Assembly (NCBI RefSeq): GCF_000155675.2 | Contig: NC_020911.1 | Location: forward strand, 3,090,501 to 3,154,500 | DNA from: Octadecabacter antarcticus 307 | Lineage (GTDB): Bacteria; Pseudomonadota; Alphaproteobacteria; Rhodobacterales; Rhodobacteraceae | DNA length: 64,000 bases | Reading direction: 5' to 3' | In this document: in pieces, positions 52,448 to 64,000 of the stretch | Numbering within the stretch: position 1 is the stretch's first letter | How the letters are laid out: every line of letters begins with the position of its first letter | The notes under the pieces: model-generated | What the model was told of the DNA's origin: nothing | Databases searched by the model: none | What the model saw: only the letters and a program-made list of their open reading frames with translations | Translations under genes and position numbers: made by a program

Positions 52448-52543
52448 CGGGATGGGTTTTATCCCTAGGATGTGGGCGTTTTAGGCGCGCGTTGGGGGAC
52501 TGTCCAGACCCTTCTTACATTTCCCTCAAATCGCTTCTAAAAC

Positions 52544-52726
52544 CTAAGAAGGGCGTGGCAAATCTGGATCGTCGGACGCCCTCTCAAGCGCGCCCACCAA
52601 CTCATCCACATCATCAGGGTCTGTGGACGGAAACGCATAGCCACCACTTGGCCATTTCGCCAGATCAACATCCGCACAGCGCTTGGAACGAAACGGGCGA
52701 AAGTGCTGTGTGGATGGCTCCTGCAT
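52544..52726 (-). CDS. Possible 60-residue small protein
   Basis: ATG 52726; MQEPSTQHFRPFRSKRCADV, LAKWPSGGYAFPSTDPDDVD, ELVGALERASDDPDLPRPS. Composition looks protein-like (acidic helix at the end), but no family or strong ribosome site is seen. Confidence 0.4.
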   Translation of the reverse strand: MQEPSTQHFRPFRSKRCADVDLAKWPSGGYAFPSTDPDDVDELVGALERASDDPDLPRPS

Positions 52727-52779
52727 AGCAAGACATTTTTGATCAGATTTGTGTATTTGTCAGAAGCAGTCATGTGTTC

Positions 52780-52821
52780 CCGCTGCCCGGCAGTTGATTG
52801 CAAGGCAATCAATGAGAGGGG
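52780..52821 (-). repeat. Hairpin unit 1 (reverse)
   Basis: Reads in its own direction CCCTCTC, stem TTGATTGC / GCAATCAA with 3-nt loop, then CTGCCGGGCAGCGG. Same fixed ends as the other units, own palindrome. Confidence 0.8.
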
Positions 52822-52848
52822 CCTGTTTGCGCGGTTTTGACCGCTGCC

Positions 52849-52891
52849 CCCCTCTCGGCAGATTGCTACGCAATCGCCTGACGGGCAACGG
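52849..52891 (+). repeat. Hairpin unit 2
   Basis: CCCTCTC, stem GATTGC-TAC-GCAATC inside a GGC/GCC clamp, then TGACGGGCAACGG (two changes from the usual tail). Confidence 0.8.
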
Positions 52892-53557
52892 ATGGGTTCC
52901 GCAGACCAAGTCCCTTACAGCTTAACGGGCTATACCGCCCGGGACTTTCGACGGGGTGTCCTGGTTTTGGCGGCAGACTTATGTTAACTTCGTCCCGGAG
53001 ACAGGACAGTTTAGTTATTGACCCTATGCGGCCATTTTCCAAGTCATATCTTCAAATGCCTGCTGCGGTGTTTGGTAACCGATGCCGGAGTGGCGGCGCT
53101 GTCGGTTGTAGAAGACCTCGGTATATTCAAAGATTGCAGCCTTAGCTTGGGCGCGGGTTCTGAAGCCTTGGCGATGGACCAGCTCCTTTTTCAATGACGC
53201 AAAAAAGCTCTCCATCGGTGCATTGTCCAGACATTCGCCCCTGCGACTCATAGATTGTGTGAGCCCTGCTTTTTTGATCAGCTCGCGATAGTCCCCACCA
53301 GCGTACTGACTGCCGCGGTCCGAATGATGGATCAACCCAGGAACGGGCCCCCTGCGACCCAAGGCCATGTTGAGGGCATCGCAGCAAAGTTCAGCGCGCA
53401 GATGATCCTCCATCGCCCAGCCAACAATCTCACGCGTGGCCATGTCTTTCACGCCAGCCAGATAAAGCCAGCCTTCATCCGTGCCTATATAGGTGATGTC
53501 AGCAAGCCAAACGGTGTTGGGCGTCTGACTGTGGAACTTCTGCTCCAGCAGGTTTGG

Positions 53558-53630
53558 CCCCTCTCGGCAGATTGCTTCGCAATCGCCTGCCCATTGCCGG
53601 CAGCACATACGCAGTATGTGTGAGAGGGGG
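53558..53630. repeat. Composite hairpin units 3 and 4 (tail to tail)
   Basis: CCCTCTC-GGCA-GATTGC-TTC-GCAATC-GCC then a shared tail, then the reverse unit with stem CACATAC-GCA-GTATGTG ending GAGAGGG. Reverse complement of the composite at 62868-62940. Inserted in orfB. Confidence 0.85.
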
Positions 53631-53768
53631 CAATGGAAGGCTTCAGTTTATGATTGCTGTCGGTCGTGATCGGCCTTTTACGCTTGCGCAGGAGAGGAGG
53701 TATCTTGTTTTCTTTCATTATTCTCGCCACACGCCGTTCAGAAACAACTTCACCACCCGCCAGTAGAT

Positions 53769-53808
53769 CCCCCTCTCGGTGAATGTAGCATTCACCTGCC
53801 GGCAATGG
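53769..53808 (+). repeat. Hairpin unit 5 (in-frame insert in orfB)
   Basis: CCCTCTC, stem GGTGAATG-TAG-CATTCACC, tail TGCCGGCAATGG. Net addition 36 nt relative to copy 2, keeping the transposase frame. Confidence 0.85.
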
Positions 53809-54021
53809 GTGGATGCGTTTTGATCCATAGCACTTCTTGCTGGCTTTGAAGAAGATTTTGATCTTCGGCAGGACCTCCAGATCCCACTCCTCACGATCAG
53901 CTTGGCGCTGATCTCGGGCAGGCTGACTGGTCAGGAACCCGTAAAACCAGCGCCGCGATAACTCCAGAAGCCGACATAATGTAGAAACCGCATATTGCGC
54001 TTTTTGGGCAGTGATGAAAGA

Positions 54022-54439
54022 TCATTTAGAGGAATGCAATTTCAGATACTGCGTGGTGATGTCGTCAGTCACATTTCCAGAGGTGGTTGAGAAATATCCG
54101 CGTGCCCAAAACCGCCTGCCCCAGTAGCGCTTGCGCAACTCAGGGAATTCCATCTGGATGCGGCGCGACGAGCGGCCCTTTATGCGTTGCATAACGTTGG
54201 ACAGGGACAGTTTTAGTGGGATCGACAGGAACATGTGCACATGATCGCGTCCCAGCACACCTTTTGCGATACGGACCCCCATTTCGGCGCATGTTTGCAT
54301 GATAATCTCACGTATCCGCTCTCGCATCGCACCCTGCAAAACCTTGTATCTATGTTTTGTGACCCACACGACATTTTGTGACCCACACGACGTGAAATCT
54401 GTGGTAAAATCACATGTGCGCGGATGAGGAATAACGCAT
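54022..54439 (-). pseudogene. tnpA: IS200-type TnpA (Y1 transposase), broken
   Basis: Start MRYSSSAH at 54439 behind GGAGAGAAG is followed by a stop (ATG TGA). A 19-bp tandem duplication (about 54356-54393) then shifts the frame. From WVTKHRYKVLQGAMRERIRE on it is intact, with the HUH motif GRDHVHMFLSIPLK and the late Tyr helix region (DDITTQYLKLHSSK). Inactive as written. Confidence 0.8.
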
Positions 54440-54505
54440 GATCTTCTCTCCTGAATTTTGAAACCATACTGCTAATGTGGGTTTCAAAATTCAGGAGAGA
54501 AGATC
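54440..54505. repeat. 26-bp perfect inverted repeat
   Basis: 54440-54465 (GATCTTCTCTCCTGAATT...) and 54480-54505 are perfect reverse complements around a 14-nt loop. One arm is the ribosome-site region of tnpA. Confidence 0.8.
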
Positions 54506-54653
54506 AATCATAGATTCCCTGAAGCTGACCGGCTAGAAGCCGGTGGTTTCGATCCATTAGATGGAAAATGAAGGTCCTCAGTAGTGGCTATGCCTTGCAC
54601 GAATTGGTTCTGATGCCATGATAATACTTGCAGCTATCAACGAGGCACGGGAA

Positions 54654-55127
54654 ATGAATCTCAACCCAGCTTGGGAATACGTCGCTGATAATGTCATGGG
54701 CGGTGTGTCTAATGGCGGCATGCGGCAAGAGACGTATCAAAGTCGCAAGGCTGCTATCTTGTATGGGAACCTGTCGTTGGACAATAACGGGGGGTTTATC
54801 CAGATTGCTTCAGATCTGAACTCAGATGGAACCGCGTTCGATGCAAGCATGTGGACGGGTCTTGAATTGGACGTCAGCGGCAACAGCGATCGCTACGATA
54901 TTCGCCTGCGCACGGACCAACTCACCAAGCCTTGGGAATCTTTTAGAACTGAGTTCACCGCAACGCCTGATTGGCAGACGCTTCGGATACCGTTTGGCAC
55001 GTTCACATCGCACAAAACCGAAGCCATATTTGATCCTACTCAACTTCGGCGGATCGGTATTCTTGCGATTGGGCGAAAATTTCACGCTGAAGTGGCTGTT
55101 GCGGGCGTGCGATTGTATCGCATCTAA
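54654..55127 (+). CDS. CIA30-family protein
   Basis: 157 residues from ATG 54654 (an ATG at 54618 would add 12). Family pattern WEYVADNVMGGVSNGGMRQE, then GNLSLDNNGGFIQIASDLN and YDIRLRTDQLTKPWESFRTE, a galactose-binding-like beta sandwich. Named for mitochondrial complex I intermediate-associated protein 30; the bacterial role is unknown. Confidence 0.8.
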   Translation: MNLNPAWEYVADNVMGGVSNGGMRQETYQSRKAAILYGNLSLDNNGGFIQIASDLNSDGTAFDASMWTGLELDVSGNSDRYDIRLRTDQLTKPWESFRTEFTATPDWQTLRIPFGTFTSHKTEAIFDPTQLRRIGILAIGRKFHAEVAVAGVRLYRI

Positions 55128-55188
55128 TATCCTTGCCACGACGACGCGCTACACTTCACTTCAGTCGTTCAAGCTGTAAAAAACAACC

Positions 55189-56616
55189 ATGTCAAAAAAG
55201 ACCCTCAACAAAACCAACCTTGAAACACTGGGTGCCGAACAACTGGCTGCACTCCTGATGGAAGTCAGCATGGGCAGTGCTGATATAAAGCGCAGGCTGC
55301 GGTTGGAGTTAAGCCATAACCTTGGCCCAGTTGAGCTGGCTCAAGATGTGCGCAAACGGCTTACGACGCTGCGAAGGTCCACAAGTTTTGTCGGTTGGCG
55401 CAAGCGCAAGGCGTTGATCAAGGATCTTACTATTCAGGTGTCGATGATTGTCGAAAAAATCGCCCCCGAAGATCCAAACATCGCGTTTGATTTGCTCTGG
55501 CAGTTCATTGAAATCGCCCCGTCGGTGTATGGCCGCGTGGACGACAGCAAAGGCGATATCGGGGATGTGTTTCGCGCTGCAATTGATCGTTTCAACGAGA
55601 TTACGCCACGCGTGCAACTAGACCCCAATACACTGGCGGACCGAGTTTGGACCGCCATTCAGGACAACGGCTACGGCGAATGGGACGGGATCATCCCCCT
55701 GATGGCACACGCCCTCGGGGCATCAGGTCTGGCGCGGTTGGTAGCAAATGTTGAAGCCTACGGCACATCCCCGATTGAGAACGATGGCGAAGATCACGAA
55801 GCAATACAGTTTTTGCGTCGCCTGCGTGGTGGTGACGATAACGTCGCCAAACGCAAAGCCCGTTTCGTCAAATGGTGCCTGCAGGAAATAGCGGCTGCCG
55901 CAGGTGACACAAGCGCCTATATCGCCCAGTATTCCAATGCTGACCTAACGCGCAAAGATATCGCGTCTGAAGTCGCCATGCTTTTCCTCAACGATGCAAA
56001 GGCCGAAGACGCGTTAGACCTATTGTTGAATGCGCAAGACGACGAACGTGATATCGGACAGGGCGCATGGGACTCTTCTTATATCGCCAGCCTGATCGCG
56101 CTTGGGCGAATTGAAGACGTGCAAGCGCACCGCTGGGCCTGCTTCATGGCAACCCTCAACCTCAACCATCTGCGCGATTACCTCAAGCTTCTGCCCGCCT
56201 TTGACGACGTCGAAGCCGAGGACACTGCAATGAAGCATGTCTTGGACTTTCCAGACTTTTCAACCGCGTTAAAGTTCTCCCTCAACTGGCCAGACCTACA
56301 GGCGGCAGCCGCATTGGTTAAAACACGTGCCGATGAGATCAAGGTCGATTTCTACCCTCTCTTAACATCTGCCGCCGAAGCGCTCCGATCACGACATCCG
56401 CTTGCTGCGGTCTTGCTGTGGCGATCAATGATCGACGATGCCCTGCAACACGATCGGGCTTTTCGTTACGGTCACGCAGCCGAACACCTTACAGATTGCA
56501 CTGCGCTGGACGCAGAGTTGGTGGACTACGAAACATTCCCAACCCATGCGACCTACCTTCAGACCCTTCAAATTCATCATGACCAAAAATCATCATTCTG
56601 GGCTAAAACGAGTTAA
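55189..56616 (+). CDS. DUF6880-like helical protein
   Basis: 475 residues, all-helical. LRLELSHNLGPVELAQDVRK and RRSTSFVGWRKRKALIKDLT near the start, later YGHAAEHLTDCTALDAELVD. I recall this pattern from DUF6880 proteins of alphaproteobacteria; function unknown. No membrane segment. Confidence 0.6.
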   Translation: MSKKTLNKTNLETLGAEQLAALLMEVSMGSADIKRRLRLELSHNLGPVELAQDVRKRLTTLRRSTSFVGWRKRKALIKDLTIQVSMIVEKIAPEDPNIAFDLLWQFIEIAPSVYGRVDDSKGDIGDVFRAAIDRFNEITPRVQLDPNTLADRVWTAIQDNGYGEWDGIIPLMAHALGASGLARLVANVEAYGTSPIENDGEDHEAIQFLRRLRGGDDNVAKRKARFVKWCLQEIAAAAGDTSAYIAQYSNADLTRKDIASEVAMLFLNDAKAEDALDLLLNAQDDERDIGQGAWDSSYIASLIALGRIEDVQAHRWACFMATLNLNHLRDYLKLLPAFDDVEAEDTAMKHVLDFPDFSTALKFSLNWPDLQAAAALVKTRADEIKVDFYPLLTSAAEALRSRHPLAAVLLWRSMIDDALQHDRAFRYGHAAEHLTDCTALDAELVDYETFPTHATYLQTLQIHHDQKSSFWAKTS

Positions 56617-57088
56617 GGCGGTGGAAAAGGGTCAGCGCGATTGGAGCCGCCAACATTATTTATTTATGCTTATTTCGCACGTTTTCTCTTGCTGTGCGGA
56701 AGCGCCCAACGACCTTTGCAATGAAAGGGAAGATTGGCAGGAAGCCGCGATATAAGATTTCCAGAATTGGCATCACGCCGCGGATTCTGGCGAAGCGAGC
56801 GGCCCACTGCCAACCGGGCAAGGAGTCCCAAAAATCCACAAATGCGCGCGCAGAGATTGTCCACATTCTGCGCTAAATGTTGAAGGGGTCTGTAACTCTG
56901 TGATCTTCCTTTCTTAAGCAGTGTGTGGCGTATAACGGCAAGACCTGCAGCACGGGTTGGGATGAAATTTGGCGTCTTGCAGCACCTTTTTTGGATTTGC
57001 GTTTAGCAATTTTAAACTTGGATGCTGTGGCACAAATTCTGGCGCACCAAATAGCCAGCCACATTGGCTTTTTGTATAGGAGAAAGAG
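56617..57088. other. No recognisable gene
   Basis: Many stops in all frames; no tRNA, repeat or known fragment seen. Probably decayed sequence. Confidence 0.45.
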
Positions 57089-57465
57089 TTAGACGCCCGC
57101 CAGACGCACCAAGACGATTGCTAATGTGCCGATATGGACCAACGTCAGCAAAACTGACGCACCATGCAGTATTTTAAACTGCCGCTTATGCCCTGCATCC
57201 GTTGCGGCATTGATCAATGGCATCAATATTTGGCGCGCAAAACGGTGGATATGGCTATAAATAGCAACGCAGCACCTGACGTTGGATCGCCTGAAAACGC
57301 TGCCAATGCGGCTACAGTCGCTGTCACAAAGACAAAGGTGTAGAAATGAGGAAAGGCTTTTCGGATCAGTGGACTGGCGGTCTCTACGGGTAGTGCAGGA
57401 AACAGGAACGCAACAAAACCGAATGCGTATAACTGTACGTCGTCACCAAACTGGGCTCTGCCCAT
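57089..57465 (-). pseudogene. DUF4149/TMEM205-like membrane protein, frameshifted
   Basis: QLYAFGFVAFLFPALPVETA, then RKAFPHFYTFVFVTATVAAL and a stop at 57223. Another frame continues LMPLINAATDAGHKRQFKIL, then LHGASVLLTLVHIGTLAIVL to 57089. One small frameshift near 57240 separates the halves; the start at 57465 may also be disturbed. Confidence 0.65.
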
Positions 57466-57539
57466 TTTTTGACTGCGACCAGCGACCGCGCTGGACCTGG
57501 GACTGTGAACGCGTTGCGCCCAGCCACGACAGCAGTCCC

Positions 57540-57760
57540 TGCCCTTGTCTGTTGCAGCGATCAATCTCCTTAAATCGCTTCTCAATTTTGCAATGCGCAA
57601 TGCGGATGAGCTTGTGTTTCCCAATCAAGTTGGAAATCGCCTTAGAAATTGGGGTCGGATCACGAAAGCCGTTCAACGAGAGGGTGCAACAAGCGATTGG
57701 CATCGGCACGATCACGCGGTCAAACAAGGCGTCAACGCAGTTGTTCTGAACAACTTCGAA
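57540..57760 (+). pseudogene. Tyrosine integrase remnant
   Basis: LVFPNQVGNRLRNWGRITKA then SDWHRHDHAV, equivalent to the region leading to HDLRRT in phage-type integrases. The Arg motif is lost and no upstream half is seen. Confidence 0.55.
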
Positions 57761-58416
57761 ATCCTATGCATGCGGGATATTTTTGAGCATTGACAGAGCT
57801 TTCACAATCTGTCCGACAATCGCATTGGTCCCCTGCACTAAAAGAACAACTTAGCGAATGAACGTTCTGTCTGACGTGGCGACAACCTATGATCGATTGC
57901 GGGGCTGCATTTGTTATTCATGTGCCGGAAGTAGAACGCAAAAAAAATGCCCAAGAATAACTTTACCCCGCGTCCGAACTCAAGTTCCGCTATCTTACGG
58001 CAAACCCAGCGCACGTTTTTTATCGGCTGCCCATTTCTTGATCGTGAGATCGAACGTGAGCGCCATCAAAGACGCAGACAGCTTAATTAGGCTTTGACTG
58101 CAATTCCAAGGCGGGCACGCTCGAAGCGTTGAGGTCAAAAGACAATATTTTTGATTGGCTTAATAAGGAAGGCCCTCAAAAAAAAGTGGGGTCGTCATTC
58201 GATGCGCCGCAAGAAACAGTAAAATTGGGCTCACATTGGCCTTCCGCAGCACAGCACAAACCCCTGATCCGTAGCAGCTTGGATGTCGGCTCTCGCCATT
58301 GTCGAACTGCCACTTAGCACCTGCAGCGAATTCACACTTACCGCCCAAACTGACAGCCCTCGGTTCCAGACCAAAACTGACTTTGGAGTATCGCCATTAG
58401 ATGGAAAGTTAATAAG
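57761..58416. other. Non-coding or decayed region right of merA
   Basis: No gene recognised. Contains the third GCAGCGAA...CCGCCCAAAC block (58323-58350). Confidence 0.45.
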
Positions 58417-59850
58417 TTACCCCGCACAACACGACAGCTTTGTGACATCCTTCTCGAACGTCTGCGCAGCCAGTTTTAGTCCTTCTACTGTTGTGAGATA
58501 CGGAAAAATCATCGCACCCGAGTCGTTGTAGGTCATACCCATTTTAAGCGCCATTGCCACCGTCTGAATGCTATCTGCGCCTTCTGGAGCGATGATATGC
58601 GCACCAAGGAGCTTCTTGCTCTGCTTGTCCGCAATCAGCTTGATTAGACCCCGTGTATCACGCGCCGCCAAGGCCCGTGGCACGTGCTCAAGACCCAGAA
58701 CCGAAGTCACTACATCATGTCCAGCAGACTTGGCTTGGGCCTCGGTAAGACCAACACTCGCCACTTGCGGATCGGAAAAGACCACGGCAGGCATGATGCT
58801 GTTATCATAGACTAGTGTGTTTCCATTCATCGCGTTTTTAGCGGCAAGCTTTGCACCGTATGCCGCCATGTAGACGAACTGATCGGTTCCGGTCACATCC
58901 CCCGTCGCATAAACCCCGTCGCGCGTGCTTCGCATCTGCGGGTCGATTACAATTCCGCCGCGCGCATTCGTGTCGATACCGGCAATGTCGAGCGCCAATG
59001 AGCCAGTGTTTGGGACACGACCCGTGGCCAGCAAGAGTTTTTCAGCTTCTATCCTGACCGCTACGCCATTACGTGCTGCGTGAAGAATAACACCCTCGCC
59101 TGACGCCTCGAAACTGTCATAGGACAGGCCATCAAGGACTTTGATGCCTTCATTGGTGAAGGCTTTCGTCAGGGCATCACTGACTTCCGGCTCGGCTTCG
59201 GGCAGCAGTCCACGGCGCGTCACGATGGTAACTTTGACACCTGCCTGCGCGAATATCTGGGCGATTTCAACCCCGATATAGCCGCCGCCCATCACCATTA
59301 ACGATTTTGGGAGCTTTTTTTGTTCAAGAGCAGAGGTGCTGTCCAGCCAACCAACTTCACTCAGTCCGGGGATATTGGGGATATGTGGCGACGATCCTGT
59401 TGCAATGATGATTTTAGGGGCACGTATGGTGCGGTCACCAACATGCAGTGAACCATCTTTCACAAAACTTGCCTGGCCTTCAATGTAGGACACGCCCTCA
59501 TAGTTTGGCAAAACATCAACGTATTTTGCTGCGCGTAGATCATCCACCAAGGCTCGCTTTTGGGCGACCAACGCCACCCAGTCGGTCACTTGTGCGGTGG
59601 CTTCCACTCCATCAAATCGGGCCGCACCCTTGGCTGAGTGCAGCGTTCCCACTGCACGGATCATCACTTTGGATGGGACACATCCGACATTGACGCAAGT
59701 GCCGCCAATGGTTCCATATCCAATAAGCGCAACCCGTGCTCCGTCTTCGGCAGCGGTAATTGCTGCGGAAAACCCAGCAGAGCCGGCACCAATAACAGCA
59801 AGGTCAAAAGTATCGGCATCCACCAAGTCTGGCGTTTGTAAATCAAGCAT
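58417..59850 (-). CDS. merA: Mercuric reductase
   Basis: Flavoprotein that reduces Hg(II) to Hg(0) with NADPH. 477 residues from ATG 59850. FAD motif AVIGAGSAGFSAA, redox Cys52 and Cys57 in GGTCVNVGCVPSKV, NADPH motif MVMGGGYIGVEIAQI, and the C-terminal metal-binding pair in LSCCAG. It lacks the N-terminal MerP-like domain present in some MerA. Last gene of the leftward mer operon. Confidence 0.95.
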   Translation of the reverse strand: MLDLQTPDLVDADTFDLAVIGAGSAGFSAAITAAEDGARVALIGYGTIGGTCVNVGCVPSKVMIRAVGTLHSAKGAARFDGVEATAQVTDWVALVAQKRALVDDLRAAKYVDVLPNYEGVSYIEGQASFVKDGSLHVGDRTIRAPKIIIATGSSPHIPNIPGLSEVGWLDSTSALEQKKLPKSLMVMGGGYIGVEIAQIFAQAGVKVTIVTRRGLLPEAEPEVSDALTKAFTNEGIKVLDGLSYDSFEASGEGVILHAARNGVAVRIEAEKLLLATGRVPNTGSLALDIAGIDTNARGGIVIDPQMRSTRDGVYATGDVTGTDQFVYMAAYGAKLAAKNAMNGNTLVYDNSIMPAVVFSDPQVASVGLTEAQAKSAGHDVVTSVLGLEHVPRALAARDTRGLIKLIADKQSKKLLGAHIIAPEGADSIQTVAMALKMGMTYNDSGAMIFPYLTTVEGLKLAAQTFEKDVTKLSCCAG

Positions 59851-59869
59851 AATGTTTGGTCTTTCGGTA

Positions 59870-60064
59870 TCAAGGTTTCCGCGCACAGAGGATGACTGCG
59901 TAGATCGTGATCAGCACAAACACGGCAAGGGCGGACAATAGAACGTAGTCGAAGTAACTGACGACATCTGACAATCCGGCAAAGCCGAACAGAAGAGGCA
60001 TAAAGCAACACAGCGCTGTAATAACCGTGCCAACAATTCCTGTTTTAAGAAGTTTGTCGTTCAC
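59870..60064 (-). CDS. merF: Mercury transporter MerF
   Basis: 64 residues, two membrane spans. IVGTVITALCCFMPLLFGFA holds the Cys pair in the first span; DYVLLSALAVFVLITIYAVI is the second. Could supply inner-membrane Hg(II) uptake and so compensate for the broken merT. Confidence 0.88.
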   Translation of the reverse strand: MNDKLLKTGIVGTVITALCCFMPLLFGFAGLSDVVSYFDYVLLSALAVFVLITIYAVILCARKP

Positions 60065-60353
60065 TTTTTTGGTCCTCTTTGAAGAGTTGGTTATGTCTGC
60101 GCACCCGAATGAAATTTCGCGTCGCTAAAATTAAGATGCTGCCAAGCGTCACCATGAGGGTGATGATCAGCAGATTGGCACCCAGCAGAAACCCAGCCGA
60201 TCCAAAAAGAGAGGTTCCGATCAAAGTGGCCCTTCCTGCACAGCAGATCGCGACGACAGGTGCGGCGACGATGAAGGCAAGTAAACCTCCTGTTGAGTTA
60301 TCTTTCGTTTGCAGTTCAGGAATTACTATCGTCGGACACAAGCTCAGCTTCAT
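60045..60353 (-). CDS. Small mer-operon membrane protein
   Basis: About 102 residues if started at ATG 60353, which overlaps merP by 38 bp; an internal AGGAGG suggests a shorter product. GGLLAFIVAAPVVAICCAGR has a Cys pair in a membrane span like mercury transporters, and a second span is LLIITLMVTLGSILILATRN. Exact name not clear. Overlaps merF by 20 bp. Confidence 0.6.
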   Translation of the reverse strand: MKLSLCPTIVIPELQTKDNSTGGLLAFIVAAPVVAICCAGRATLIGTSLFGSAGFLLGANLLIITLMVTLGSILILATRNFIRVRRHNQLFKEDQKSERQTS

Positions 60354-60612
60354 AACCGGCAGACGTAGAGGCGAACGCAATACCGTCTGCACTGGTAATG
60401 GCATCATCAAAGACAACCAGCGCCGTTCGGGTGTCGGCATCAGCGGTCACTGTTACAACCCCATCGACGCCGCCCATTGCTGCCTCAACGATAAAGGGGC
60501 AGCTTGCGCAGGTCATGCCGGGAACTGAGAATGTCACTGTGTGCTCTGCAGCAAAGACTGGCGTGGCGGCCATGAAGCCAATCAGGGCCAAAACGGAAGT
60601 ATGGAGTTTCAT
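60316..60612 (-). CDS. merP: Periplasmic mercury-binding protein MerP
   Basis: 98 residues from ATG 60612. Signal peptide (LHTSVLALIGFMAATPVFAA) and heavy-metal-associated domain with VPGMTCASCPFIVEAA. Binds Hg(II) in the periplasm and passes it to the inner-membrane transporter. Confidence 0.93.
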   Translation of the reverse strand: MKLHTSVLALIGFMAATPVFAAEHTVTFSVPGMTCASCPFIVEAAMGGVDGVVTVTADADTRTALVVFDDAITSADGIAFASTSAGYEAELVSDDSNS

Positions 60613-60623
60613 AATATGTCCTT

Positions 60624-61028
60624 TCACAGACCAAGAAGAATCGAGGCGGCGACCGGCGCTATCCAGTTCCAGAACAACGCGATCACGATTAAAAGTGTTG
60701 ATGCCCAAAGCGCGGATTTGACCAGGCGGTTGGGAAGTGGCCGCGCACAAGTGTCGCCCACGGCGCAGACCTTGGGCTTGCGATAAACCATCCAATAGCC
60801 ATAGCCGAGAAACCCCAACGTAATCACAATGAAGATTGGCTTTTAGGGTTCGAGGGCCGTCAGATTGCCGATCCATACACCGGATACACCCAAGCTAAAT
60901 AAGATCAACGGAACGATGCAGCACGTTGAAGCTGCAAGAGCGCCAAGGATGCCCCCCGCTGCAATTATGCGCGTCTTTCGGCTGTCAGGGTCGCTCTGGT
61001 TTATGTCAACGTCTATGGCGTCAGTCAT
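60624..61028 (-). pseudogene. merT: Mercury transporter MerT with nonsense codon
   Basis: First part ASTCCIVPLILFSLGVSGVW and NLTALEP, then TAA at 60843-60845, then KPIFIVITLGFLGYGYWMVY and the second Cys pair region (VCAVGDTCARP) in the same frame. Relatives have Tyr after LEP, so a single base change (TA[CT] to TAA) explains it. The N-terminal span with its Cys pair could still be made, but the full transporter cannot. Confidence 0.88.
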
Positions 61029-61069
61029 GCAAGCACTCGCAATTTAAGTTTCTGGATGTAAGATGCGGC

Positions 61070-61084
61070 CTGTAGCCACTACAG
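61070..61084. promoter_or_regulatory. mer operator between merR and merT
   Basis: Perfect dyad CTGTAG-CCA-CTACAG. On the leftward strand TTGCTT (61090-61085) lies before it, and a 19-bp spacer leads to CATCTT, the long spacer typical of MerR-controlled promoters. Confidence 0.7.
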
Positions 61085-61102
61085 AAGCAAGAGGTTTTTT
61101 CG

Positions 61103-61522
61103 ATGTCTGAGTTCACGAACGCGCGAGGGTATCCGATTGGCGAAATGTCCAAGCATACCGGTGTGAATATCGAAACAATCCGCTACTACGAGCGCATTAA
61201 AATCATGCCGCAGCCGGATCGCACTGCGGGCGGCAACCGCCAGTATAATCACGACCAGCTTAAACGGCTGTCATTCATCAAGACATCCCGAGAACTTGGG
61301 TTCAGCATTAAAGAAATCCGGGCATTGCTTGAAATGGTGGACCGGCAAGACTTTACATGTGGTGAGGTGTATGAATTGACCATTGGGCACTTGGCTTCTG
61401 TGCGTGAAAAGATCAAAGGTCTGCGCAATTTGGAAAAAGCCCTTGTCGGCATGGCGTCAGAGTGCGGCCAAGGTGACGTGCCTGATTGCCCAATTCTAGA
61501 AACGCTATTCGAAGCTCGATGA
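61103..61522 (+). CDS. merR: Mercury-responsive regulator MerR
   Basis: 139 residues, divergent from merT. HTH PIGEMSKHTGVNIETIRYYE; Hg(II) ligands Cys86 (DFTCGEVYEL), Cys121 and Cys129 (SECGQGDVPDCP), with spacing 35 and 8 close to Tn501 MerR. Represses and, with Hg(II), activates the mer promoter through the dyad at 61070. Confidence 0.93.
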   Translation: MSEFTNARGYPIGEMSKHTGVNIETIRYYERIKIMPQPDRTAGGNRQYNHDQLKRLSFIKTSRELGFSIKEIRALLEMVDRQDFTCGEVYELTIGHLASVREKIKGLRNLEKALVGMASECGQGDVPDCPILETLFEAR

Positions 61523-61602
61523 ACTTAGGGTTTTACACCGTGAGGCAGTGAGACTTAGCGGACATTGGATATTCTAACACTGCAAATTCACCCACCCCTC
61601 CC

Positions 61603-62125
61603 TCAACGAACCACCGGCAAATCTGCAAGCCGCGTTGTATATCTTGGGCTTCGGTGATCGGACCGCAGCTGCCAAGGTCGCTTCATCCCTTCACTCGCAA
61701 CGACCAACGTTTCTTCCCAAACCGCTTATTGACTCGATCAAGTGCACTCATGAGAGCAGCAGATTTCGGCTTCTCAACGTCAAAAAGGGTCAGGGGCCGA
61801 TCCTCGAAGCGAATAAGATCAGCAAGCATTATCCCGGCTTTTGTAAAGCCATACGTCTGTCCCTGCCCCTTCGGCCATGCCGCTTGCGCGCCCCGACGCG
61901 CCGCTTCGACCAGATCGAACGTATCTGATGACATCGTTGTGATGCGCGTTGAGCGTGAACCGGAGTATTGCGGTCGGTCCAACCTGTGCCGGTTTGTGTG
62001 GAAGAACACCGTCAGCGTCCCAGCCACCAAGCCATGTTGGCGTAGCTTTTCGGCTGCGCGGGTCGCATGTGCAGTCACCGCCTGAAACAGCGGTCTGGCA
62101 TACTGTCCTTTGCAGCAAGATAATC
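61603..62125 (-). pseudogene. umuC: UmuC (Y-family DNA polymerase) C-terminal fragment
   Basis: AVTAHATRAAEKLRQHGLVA, later SDTFDLVEAARRGAQAAWPK and PKSAALMSALDRVNKRFGKK, the little-finger and DUF4113 part of UmuC. After RFGKK the frame shifts by one; the other frame ends SEGMKRPWQLRSDHRSPRYT and TTRLADLPVVR at 61603. The polymerase core is missing, cut by the IS3 end at about 62145. Confidence 0.8.
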
Positions 62126-62204
62126 GCCAGAACATGAACCCTGAACTTCGTCCCTGTTCCCGGACATTGGGGTACTTTACCCCTGTCCGTGAAAGGGGCA
62201 CCAG

Positions 62205-62501
62205 ATGGGACAACAGCGGCGGAAGTACACAGACGATTATAAGGCCGGGGCAGTTGAGTGACTGTACGCGCCTGGGGCGACGCAAGGCTGCGTTGCCAAG
62301 GAGCTCGGGATTACTGGTCCACAGCTGAAGACGTGGCGGCTTGAGATCGAGGCATTTGGCTCAGTTGAAGCCAAACTGCGTCAGCAAGCCGATGCGGCTG
62401 AATTGGTCCGCCTTCGCAAAGACAACAAGCGGCTTGCTCAGGACGTGGAGATTTTGCACAAAGCATCCGCTTTTTTCGCAACGCGGGCGGTGAACCCATG
62501 A
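62205..62501 (+). pseudogene. IS3-family OrfA with in-frame TGA
   Basis: MGQQRRKYTDDYKAGAVE, TGA, then LYAPGATQGCVAKELGITGP and a zipper region (AAELVRLRKDNKRLAQDVEI) to HKASAFFATRAVNP. Stop overlaps the orfB start (ATGA). Confidence 0.8.
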
Positions 62502-62867
62502 CAAGCAAGCGCACTTTCATCACTGCCCATAAAGCGCAATATGCGGTTTCAATATTATGCCGTCTCCTGGAGATATCCCGGGGCTGGTTCTACGGATTTC
62601 CAGCCAGTCAGCCTGCACGCGATCAACGTCAAGTTAATCGTGAGGCCCGAGATCAGGAGTTGCTTCCCAAGATTAAAACCTTCTTCAAGGTCAGTAAGAA
62701 ATGCTATGGATCAAAGCGTATTCACCAAGACTTGCTGGTGGATAGTGAGGTCGTCTCTGAACGTCGTGTTGCCAGAATAATGAAGGAAAACAAGGTGTCT
62801 TCGCTTCTTCGCAAGCGTAGAAAGCCAATCACGACGGACAGCGATCATGAGCTGAAGCCTTCCATTG

Positions 62868-62940
62868 CCCCCTCTCACACATACTGCGTATGTGCTGCCG
62901 GCAATGGGCAGGCGATTGCGAAGCAATCTGCCGAGAGGGG
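62868..62940. repeat. Composite hairpin units 6 and 7
   Basis: CCCTCTC-ACACATAC-TGC-GTATGTG-CTGCCGGCAATGG joined to a reverse unit with stem GATTGC-GAA-GCAATC ending GAGAGGGG. Net insert 71 nt, frame-breaking. Same composite as 53558-53630. Confidence 0.88.
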
Positions 62941-62990
62941 CCAAACTTGCTGGAACAGAAGTTCCACAGCCAGACGCCTAATACCGTTTG

Positions 62991-63029
62991 CCCTCTCAGC
63001 GATGCAGAGCATCGCCTGCCGGGTAATAG
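62991..63029 (+). repeat. Hairpin unit 8
   Basis: CCCTCTC, stem GCGATGC-AGA-GCATCGC, tail CTGCCGGGTAATAG. Inserted between ACCGTTTG and the codons for ADIT. Confidence 0.88.
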
Positions 63030-63055
63030 GTGGCCGACATCACCTATATCGACAC

Positions 63056-63096
63056 CCCCTCTCGGGATCATGCTTCGCATAACCCTGCCGGGCAAG
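63056..63096 (+). repeat. Hairpin unit 9
   Basis: CCCCTCTC, stem GGGATCATGC-TTC-GCATAACCC, tail TGCCGGGCAAG; 41 nt between GACAC and GGACGAGGG. Confidence 0.88.
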
Positions 63097-63255
63097 GGAC
63101 GAGGGCTGGCTTTATCTGGCTGGCGTGAAGGACATGGCCACGCATGAGATCGTCGGCTGGGCAATGGAAGATCACATGCGTGCCGAGCTTTGCTGTGCCG
63201 CCCTCGAGATGGCTCTGGGACGCAGAGGCCCTGTTCCAGAGTTAATACACCACTC

Positions 63256-63301
63256 CCCCCCCCCTCTCGGGATCATGCTTCGCATAACCCTGCCGGGCAG
63301 T
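63256..63301 (+). repeat. Hairpin unit 10
   Basis: Same stem as unit 9 but with nine leading C instead of four (46 nt); tail TGCCGGGCAGT. Inserted between CACCACTC and GGATAGGGG. Confidence 0.88.
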
Positions 63302-63690
63302 GGATAGGGGCCGCCAATATGCTGCTGGGGACTATCGCAAGTTGATCAAAAAGGCGAAGCTTACCCAATCCATGAGCCGCAAGGGCGAGTGCCTCGACAA
63401 TGCGGCTCATGGAGAGTTTCTTTGCCTCACTGAAAAAGGAACTGGTGCACCATCAGCGCTTCAAAACACGCGCCCAGGCCAAGGCTGTAATCTTTGAATA
63501 CATCGAGGTCTTCTATAACCGCCAGCGTCGCCATTCCGGCGTCGGATATCAAACGCCGCAACAGGCCTTCAATAATATGACTTGGGAAATGGCCGCATAG
63601 GGTCAATAAATAAGCCGCATAGGGTCAATAACTAAACTGTACGGTTTCAGGGACGAAGTTTACAACAGGCCATTCTTCTTTCCAGGTGTC

Positions 63691-63728
63691 CCCTCTCATC
63701 GAAACTACGTTTCGGCTGCCGGGCAATG
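63691..63728 (+). repeat. Hairpin unit 11
   Basis: CCCTCTCAT, stem CGAAAC-TAC-GTTTCG, tail GCTGCCGGGCAATG; 38 nt. Splits the orfB start of the second IS3 type between GTGTC and GATAAAGG. Confidence 0.88.
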
Positions 63729-63752
63729 GATAAAGGCAAACCTCATCCGCCG

Positions 63753-63792
63753 CCCTCTCGGGATCATGCTGCGCATAACCCTGCCGGTCAGT
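63753..63792 (+). repeat. Hairpin unit 12
   Basis: CCCTCTC, stem GGGATCATGC-TGC-GCATAACCC, tail TGCCGGTCAGT. Same stem as units 9 and 10 with a different loop base. Confidence 0.88.
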
Positions 63793-64000
63793 GGATTACC
63801 GCCTTTTTTAGCACTTCCCTCTCCTCGCGCAGAAGGCGGACTTCTTTGCGAAGGCGCGTGTTCTCCTTTTCCACGTCTTCATGCGGTCATCGCCATTGTC
63901 ACTCGGACCAATGGCGTTCCAATAGCGATCATCAAGTCATGATGTTGATGCTGATGGAACCACTTGTTAGCTGTCACATCCCGTGAGGTAGTAGGGGCTT

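Follow-up and report, generated by a model that had tools for sequence, protein, structure and literature searches.

Between positions 52781 and 63793 of a 64,000-nucleotide (nt) window from Octadecabacter antarcticus 307 (our genome G000; coordinates are positions in this window unless a contig or locus is named), twelve short hairpin-bearing units are found, several of them inside two copies of an IS3-type insertion sequence (IS). Each unit joins a CCCTCTC end to a hairpin core (mostly 17–21 nt) and then to CTGCCGG and GCARTG, for a total length that is mostly 37–41 nt. We propose, with a probability of roughly 0.6, that they belong to a non-autonomous family of mobile DNA hairpins of about 40 bp, selfish and moved in trans, probably by an HUH-type enzyme. 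The family is mobile, inserts without duplication next to a one-sided target, has a covarying stem, and is spread across the host's bacterial family.

The units of the window and their host genes

The first-pass annotation had counted at least twelve units with these ends, and twelve were confirmed. Searching the window for CCCTCTC-N12-38-TGCC gave 12 matches against 0.96 expected and a maximum of 4 among 100 shuffled sequences; in this count the unit at 62907 appears twice, and the unit at 52850, which has CTGACGG, escapes the pattern. Taken alone, the tail given in that annotation was not significant and was rejected as a unit marker (22 matches with up to three mismatches, 15.8 expected), while both ends together with the hairpin are significant. 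Not every stem is exactly complementary, as had been stated: GGGATC..ATAACCC and GGCAGATTGC..GCAATCGCC contain bulges or mismatches. The twelve units hold nine distinct cores because one pair of units is common to two IS3-type copies and one core occurs twice.

Unit 1 (52781–52820, minus strand; core ATTGATTGCCTTGCAATCAA) has related copies elsewhere in the genome (230159-type). Unit 2 (52850–52890, plus strand; core GGCAGATTGCTACGCAATCGC) is the CTGACGG variant, followed by the target GATG, and a similar flank with a different core occurs in another genus (L262). Units 3 to 5 lie in a minus-strand IS3-type copy (approximately 53011–54020) that is 71% identical to the plus-strand transposase gene copy holding units 6 to 10 (approximately 62500–63613). 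The 3′ tail of unit 3 (53559–53591, plus; core GGCAGATTGCTTCGCAATCGC) is interrupted by the abutting unit 4 (53592–53628, minus; core ACACATACTGCGTATGTG). This nested, tail-to-tail arrangement (53559–53628) recurs at 62870–62939 in the other copy of the same element, where unit 6 (62870–62906, plus; core ACACATACTGCGTATGTG) occupies the site of unit 4 and unit 7 (62907–62939, minus; core GGCAGATTGCTTCGCAATCGC) that of unit 3. Unit 5 (53771–53807, plus; core GGTGAATGTAGCATTCAC) is antisense in its IS3-type transposase, and L061–L064 are empty at the site. Unit 8 (62991–63028, plus; core AGCGATGCAGAGCATCGC) also interrupts an IS3-type transposase gene, adjoining the codons of what we take to be the first catalytic Asp (TVW-ADIT motif); copies L064 and L066 are empty there. 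Units 9 (63057–63097, plus) and 10 (63262–63302, plus) share the core GGGATCATGCTTCGCATAACC. The site of unit 9 is empty in L066 and that of unit 10 in L062, L066 and L069/L121 (CACTCC^GATAGG, the caret marking the joint), unit 10 preceding what is presumably the second catalytic Asp of the transposase (HHS^DRG). Units 11 (63691–63728, plus; core ATCGAAACTACGTTTCGG) and 12 (63753–63793, plus; core GGGATCATGCTGCGCATAACC) complete the set.

Also in the window is an IS200-type Y1 transposase gene (Pfam PF01797; 54040–54372, minus strand), a candidate mover that showed no link to the units. Upstream of it lies a long palindrome (54430–54516) that matches microRNA models below their gathering scores. 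None of nine Rfam matches in 52500–64000, at E values up to 10, falls on a unit.

A dispersed family with a covarying stem

The hairpin has a stem of 6–9 bp and a loop of 3–4 nt with free sequence, and what distinguishes the subfamilies is the length of the core and a bulged base on the 5′ arm. Covariation was measured on an ungapped alignment of 31 distinct units with an 18-nt core. The stem scored 0.460, compared with 0.017–0.071 for slid partners, and none of 500 shuffles reached this value; all eight stem pairs had changes on both sides (55 cells), a number of pairs that one of the 500 shuffles attained. Three CCC/GGG pairs flanking the hairpin are nearly invariant and uninformative on covariation. 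The compensatory stem changes that the first-pass annotation had noticed are borne out. Its further argument, that pairing is kept and the fold therefore matters, represents one of two readings. Quasipalindrome correction is an established mutational process, and template switching within the hairpin would likewise produce paired changes, with no selection on the fold and the mobility of the units unchanged. Intermediates with one arm changed (CAACCAA versus CAATCAA) favour this process; the presence of the hairpin in all subfamilies and genera seen, together with the fixed ends, fits recognition of the fold. The data do not tell the two apart, and we consider template switching possible, if on the unlikely side.

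Across the 4,875,481 bases of G000 (two contigs), exact matches to CCCTCTC-N14-34-CTGCCGG number 190 in the forward direction and 165 in the reverse (355 together), and the reversed pattern used as a control matches 0 and 0 times. The chromosome is unevenly populated: its first 2.34 Mb hold 107 of these 355 matches, and the remainder holds 248. Among 61 genomes, the exact pattern was most frequent in G000 (355), G014 (60) and G025 (39), followed at lower counts by G031 (15), G036 (14, control 5) and G020 (10, control 2); the remaining genomes have 0–7 matches, many of them hairpin-less. A covariance-model search, with the model built from the 18-nt cores, a cut-off of E ≤ 1e-4 and about 21 candidates scored per genome, placed units in at least 70 of the 295 family genomes covered (69 genera), a lower bound in that G020, G024 and G027 were missed despite units that are clear by eye (L055, L043 and L042, respectively). 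A scan of GTDB returned at least 120 stretches; among the 80 listed, 78 are named as Rhodobacterales or Alphaproteobacteria, a placement of their genera that we assume. The other two (L293 and L336) lie on a single contig of Vreelandella neptunia HM116, named as a gammaproteobacterium, where the units may reflect transfer or contamination. The exact pattern also occurs in nine contigs of the IMG/VR viral collection (L404–L412).

Several units of the window are copies within copied IS3-type elements, which would suit ordinary terminators or local IS duplications. The 355 dispersed copies, the 70 genomes, the lack of a T-run after the hairpin, and insertions within genes that have empty homologues leave that explanation hardly credible. 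By the test that the first-pass annotation had set, the family is dispersed genome-wide and is not the product of local duplication in one IS cluster; the dispersed copies and the empty homologous sites described below mark it as mobile.

Insertion sites and transposase gene hosts

In aligned IS3-type copies, filled and empty sites are seen directly. From 360 units in the retrieved loci, we kept 308 with an exact CCCTCTC and sufficient flank, which reduce to 164 distinct sites with a recognisable tail. The empty homologous sites expected of a mobile unit were found among the retrieved sequences for 85 of these. Their joined flanks show a net gap of 0 in 51, +1 in 22 and another value in 12, with the best of several homologues chosen per site, a bias toward clean joints. 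In 46 of the 51 there is no gap whatever across 29 columns, and no target duplication appeared in any joint read. At these 46 ungapped empty sites, position +1 is G in 38, +2 is A in 38, +3 is T in 24 or C in 17, and +4 is G in 29 or A in 13. Because it is present in empty sites, the GATG-like sequence belongs to the target and not to the element. Units insert as whole elements, without target duplication, just 5′ of a GA(T/C)G-type target. Two other genera provide a clearer example, outside ISs. In both G027 (L042) and G114 (L253), an intergenic repeat with no relation to ISs holds a unit at C^GATGCG, with empty copies in the same locus. This repeat family (..GGCGGCCCGKCGATGCGCGGCGG.. type) is found in two genera, with filled and empty copies together (1240–1560 of L042 and 1190–1870 of L253).

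The usual hosts are transposase genes. In G000, transposase-like coding DNA lies within 60 nt of 100 of the 159 distinct sites, and on both sides at 80, compared with 22% and 17%, respectively, of 5000 random positions in the same stretches, as judged with a panel of 19 proteins partly taken from unit hosts. Transposases are frequent hosts in other genera too. For 40 of the 80 named loci, taken in list order with short frames skipped, the longest flanking frame was compared with Pfam. Nineteen frames passed a curated Pfam cut-off for transposase or integrase-core families, L342 doing so via a neighbouring Y2 fragment; three more fell below the cut-off and one had helix-turn-helix domains alone. 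Owing to wrong-frame choices, 19 of 40 is a lower bound. Inspection by eye places the units of L042, L253 and L260 between genes. A long frame was identifiable at 93 of 162 sites; there, 61 units are in sense and 32 in antisense orientation, and the lengths of 37, 38, 39, 40 and 41 nt are unrelated to the reading frame. O. antarcticus is reported to have 626 transposable-element genes and pseudogenes, in an article whose main text mentions no palindromes, repeats, hairpins, inverted or stem-loop structures (PMC3646047). This organism has many broken transposase genes, and units are probably behind some of them.

Sense insertions in phase 0 often lie directly 5′ of a catalytic Asp codon. The sites that we take to be catalytic are LLI^DSTG, SI^DATYL and TA^DGAYD in IS5 types, HHS^DRG and NS^DQG in IS3 types, LT^DNGK in IS481, WA^DGV in IS256 and NA^DDTP in IS66. 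They make up 16 of the 29 sense phase-0 Asp sites, compared with 3.9 predicted by a target matrix from 123 other sites, and target preference was rejected as the cause on these numbers. A shorter motif list gave 13 of 29 against 2.3 expected, and collapsing the sites into classes by eye left 9 of 18 (P = 2e-4). In a second set, drawn from named genomes, 11 of 33 sites were catalytic against 2.5 expected, with new families such as IS630 (VFI^DETS). Related sites are non-independent, and P values come out too small. The expected numbers include the listed motifs alone. The motif lists were written or extended after site inspection, the third being made for the named set, which renders the comparison partly post hoc; the counts are indicative only, because the lists grew after the sites were seen. 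The bias could mean that the hairpin is a homing parasite that prefers the catalytic-Asp codons of DDE transposases across the unrelated IS3, IS5, IS66, IS256, IS481 and IS630 families, and that is or was precisely removable, as RNA or DNA, thereby switching the IS off and on. We hold this to be decidedly doubtful. The bias is unexpected and, if confirmed blind, would point to one kind of mobile DNA interacting with another in a way for which we found no description.

Units travel with the ISs that carry them. All eight full-length copies of an IS481-like element of G000, in different places, contain the same two units, as do four partial copies, and two shorter copies have the one within reach. 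The sole unit-free relative found (L218; plasmid C1:37714–38712) is 77% identical, has an open frame of 331 codons, and could be a trans-acting source. For an IS1182-like element of G000, all nine copies of at least 77% identity carry at least one unit. Of these copies (L174–L182), two have the GGCAGATTGC.. subfamily at the exact site where seven have ATGGTTTG.., and the copies are mosaics whose breakpoint lies close to the unit there. A more remote copy (L194; 66%) has no unit at this site. Both searches scored part of the candidates, and further copies may exist. All six full IS3 copies of G031 have the same four units, of which two are in sense and two in antisense orientation; other matches in that genome are at most 321 bp long.

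The spread of unit-bearing ISs might at first suggest that units do the gene no harm. The polymorphisms point the other way: these ISs multiplied under weak or absent coding constraint. Polymorphisms among the G031 IS3 copies comprise 12 nonsynonymous (N) and 3 synonymous (S) changes, or 8 and 0 among changes common to at least two copies, and one copy lacks the assumed OrfA start codon. The IS481-like copies show 16 N and 12 S. They also contain two nonsense alleles, each occurring in 3 of the 12 copies, and one allele possibly lies upstream of the true start. Since the neutral N/S expectation is about 2.6–2.8, the G031 copies look unconstrained and the IS481-like copies (1.33) partly relaxed. 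Across all families, pairs of filled copies with at least 97% identity differ by 119 N, 116 S and 9 stops, and pairs with 90–97% identity by 65 N and 269 S; we read the ratio of 0.24 in the latter as pre-insertion divergence or gene conversion.

The same data bear on whether the unit is an intron-like or bypass element, removed from RNA or skipped by the ribosome, with exact removal restoring the transposase. Excising units in silico does restore long frames, and such an element would suit the catalytic-Asp enrichment in both site sets, the three multicopy IS families with units in every high-identity copy, and the low N/S between older filled copies. It is disfavoured by the presence of both orientations in the same gene, as in the two-and-two arrangement of G031 and the sense and antisense insertions overall, by lengths of 37–41 nt with no relation to frame, and by the fact that copies with nonsense alleles, or with shared changes that were all nonsynonymous (8:0), kept multiplying. 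Weak constraint in such copies argues against RNA splicing or translational bypass, and we rate both as quite improbable. As a mobile DNA hairpin, a unit mostly lands in an IS transposase gene, usually breaking the reading frame, and the damaged IS is then copied, presumably in trans, with its units carried along.

The mover and comparison with known systems

Read on the opposite strand, a unit runs CATC^CAYTGCCCGGCAG-hairpin-GAGAGGG: a short recognition tetranucleotide flanks one end alone, the hairpin is subterminal, and the target is not duplicated. This anatomy suggests single-strand transposition (HUH, IS200/IS605/REP-like), with an HUH-type enzyme probably acting in trans on the folded single strand. 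The first-pass annotation had suggested a structure-recognised unit mobilised in trans by a Y1/REP-type enzyme; the mobile family stands, and no link between the Y1 genes and the units was found. Inspected by eye, the 24 Y1 matches of G000 fall into two groups of IS200-type genes or gene fragments. Members of the first group align with a start at TTTTC^CACCTAATGG and contain hairpins of their own that differ from the units; the second group is less clearly delimited. The annotation had proposed to look for a transposase gene flanked by unit ends. Among the 24 copies, the truncated L160 has units on both sides within 700 bp, in a region crowded with 13 units; none of the remaining 23 is so flanked. 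IS200-type Y1 transposases were rejected as the mover on account of their other ends and of unit flanks in one truncated copy alone. Two Y1 matches (L158 and L159; G000:C2:3617937 and 3971797) lie in open frames of 385–390 codons, compared with the usual length of about 150.

The same kind of element may instead be moved by a rolling-circle HUH enzyme (IS91-like Y2) or another recombinase, and not by Y1. IS91-type elements insert without duplication next to a one-sided tetranucleotide, a likeness that favours this alternative, and G000 has a Y2 family, with Y2 enriched among unit genomes (12 of 29, P = 0.036). Y1 is enriched at least as strongly (14 of 31, P = 0.006), and the Y2 enrichment may simply mark genomes rich in mobile DNA. 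Co-occurrence, weak and alike for both, was discarded as a pointer to the mover, and we regard a Y2 or other recombinase as unlikely.

Several observations count against a hairpin unit moved by an HUH-type enzyme. The outermost stem pair is formed in just 7 of the 31 aligned units, compared with 27 to 31 for the other seven. The net gap is other than 0 at 34 of the 85 empty sites, in a selection already biased toward clean joints. Immediately left of the joint, 0.76 of 123 filled sites have C, compared with 23 of 46 empty ones, and no position is changed more often (0.48); since C is commoner there after insertion, the joint at the CCCTCTC end is less exact than that at the opposite end. N/S values of 1.33 (IS481-like), 1.03 (pairs of at least 97% identity) and 0.24 (90–97%) all lie below the neutral 2.7, as a removal model likewise predicts. 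No mover was found among the Y1 genes of G000, which are IS200-type with other ends, and longer unit-ended elements were not systematically searched. Y1 matches are absent from 56 of the 70 unit genomes, including the unit-rich G031. Replication-strand bias was not detected (61:46 versus 129:119, P = 0.42), in a comparison blurred by IS movement and by an origin placed from weak GC skew; strand counts were taken from the listed places below 2.34 Mb and the totals, per-stretch counts being biased by the choice of stretches around matches. Because Y1 ends differ, co-occurrence is weak and no strand bias was found, the HUH assignment draws on unit anatomy.

No described family with these ends was found in the literature, most subscription-journal papers lying outside the search, which agrees with the first-pass annotation. 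IS200/IS605 Y1 elements have a one-sided tetranucleotide target, no target duplication and a subterminal hairpin. The units resemble them in their one-sided GATG-like target, insertion without duplication (net gap 0 at 51 of 85 sites) and subterminal hairpin, but have no internal gene, and the IS200-type elements of G000 have other ends. Miniature inverted-repeat transposable elements were rejected: the ends of the unit are not inverted repeats of each other, and no duplication was seen. Integron attC sites are recognised by structure as a folded single strand with fixed and free parts, whereas no cassette or integron core site was seen in the units. Short hairpins of free stem sequence also interrupt coding genes as byps and mitochondrial double-hairpin elements; the host genes of the units lose constraint, and N/S and the nonsense alleles give no evidence of bypass. 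Very small mobile repeats have reportedly been described in cyanobacteria by Elhai in 2008; compared by description alone, they are similar by title and differ in host group.

By function, the units are closest to repetitive extragenic palindromic (REP)-like repeats, above all CGTC REPs, and are without the tags of both REP superfamilies. GTAG REPs and REPINs, with their RAYT (Y1) transposases (PMC3733652; see also PMC3116915 and PMC2817692), are likewise palindromic and non-autonomous, with proposed single-strand mobilisation in trans and a hairpin with a short unpaired tag. The units differ in that no GTAG stands at the foot of the hairpin, their ends being CCCTCTC and CTGCCGG-GCARTG, and that no unit-flanked RAYT was found; REPs are also mainly extragenic. 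CGTC REPs, as described in PMC3733652, occur mainly in alphaproteobacteria, include Rickettsia RPE-4/RPE-6 and Neisseria dRS3, and have no dedicated transposase found for them. They share with the units a short palindromic form (stems of 8–9 bp, loops of 4–5), many copies, some intragenic members and the lack of a dedicated transposase, features that are not unique to CGTC REPs. Theirs is a CGTC/TGTC/CCTC tag with a CCA-like tail, whereas the units have a fixed CCCTCTC and CTGCCGG-GCARTG with a free stem; their ends contain no CGTC or TGTC tag, CCTC occurs solely inside CCCTCTC, and the tail is GCARTG. The units additionally show empty sites, a target, and hosts that are mainly transposase genes. 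A short non-autonomous hairpin in many copies and with empty sites allows its ends and its target to be delimited with near single-base precision, and so well-defined a unit makes the question of what moves REP-like repeats that have no known transposase directly testable.

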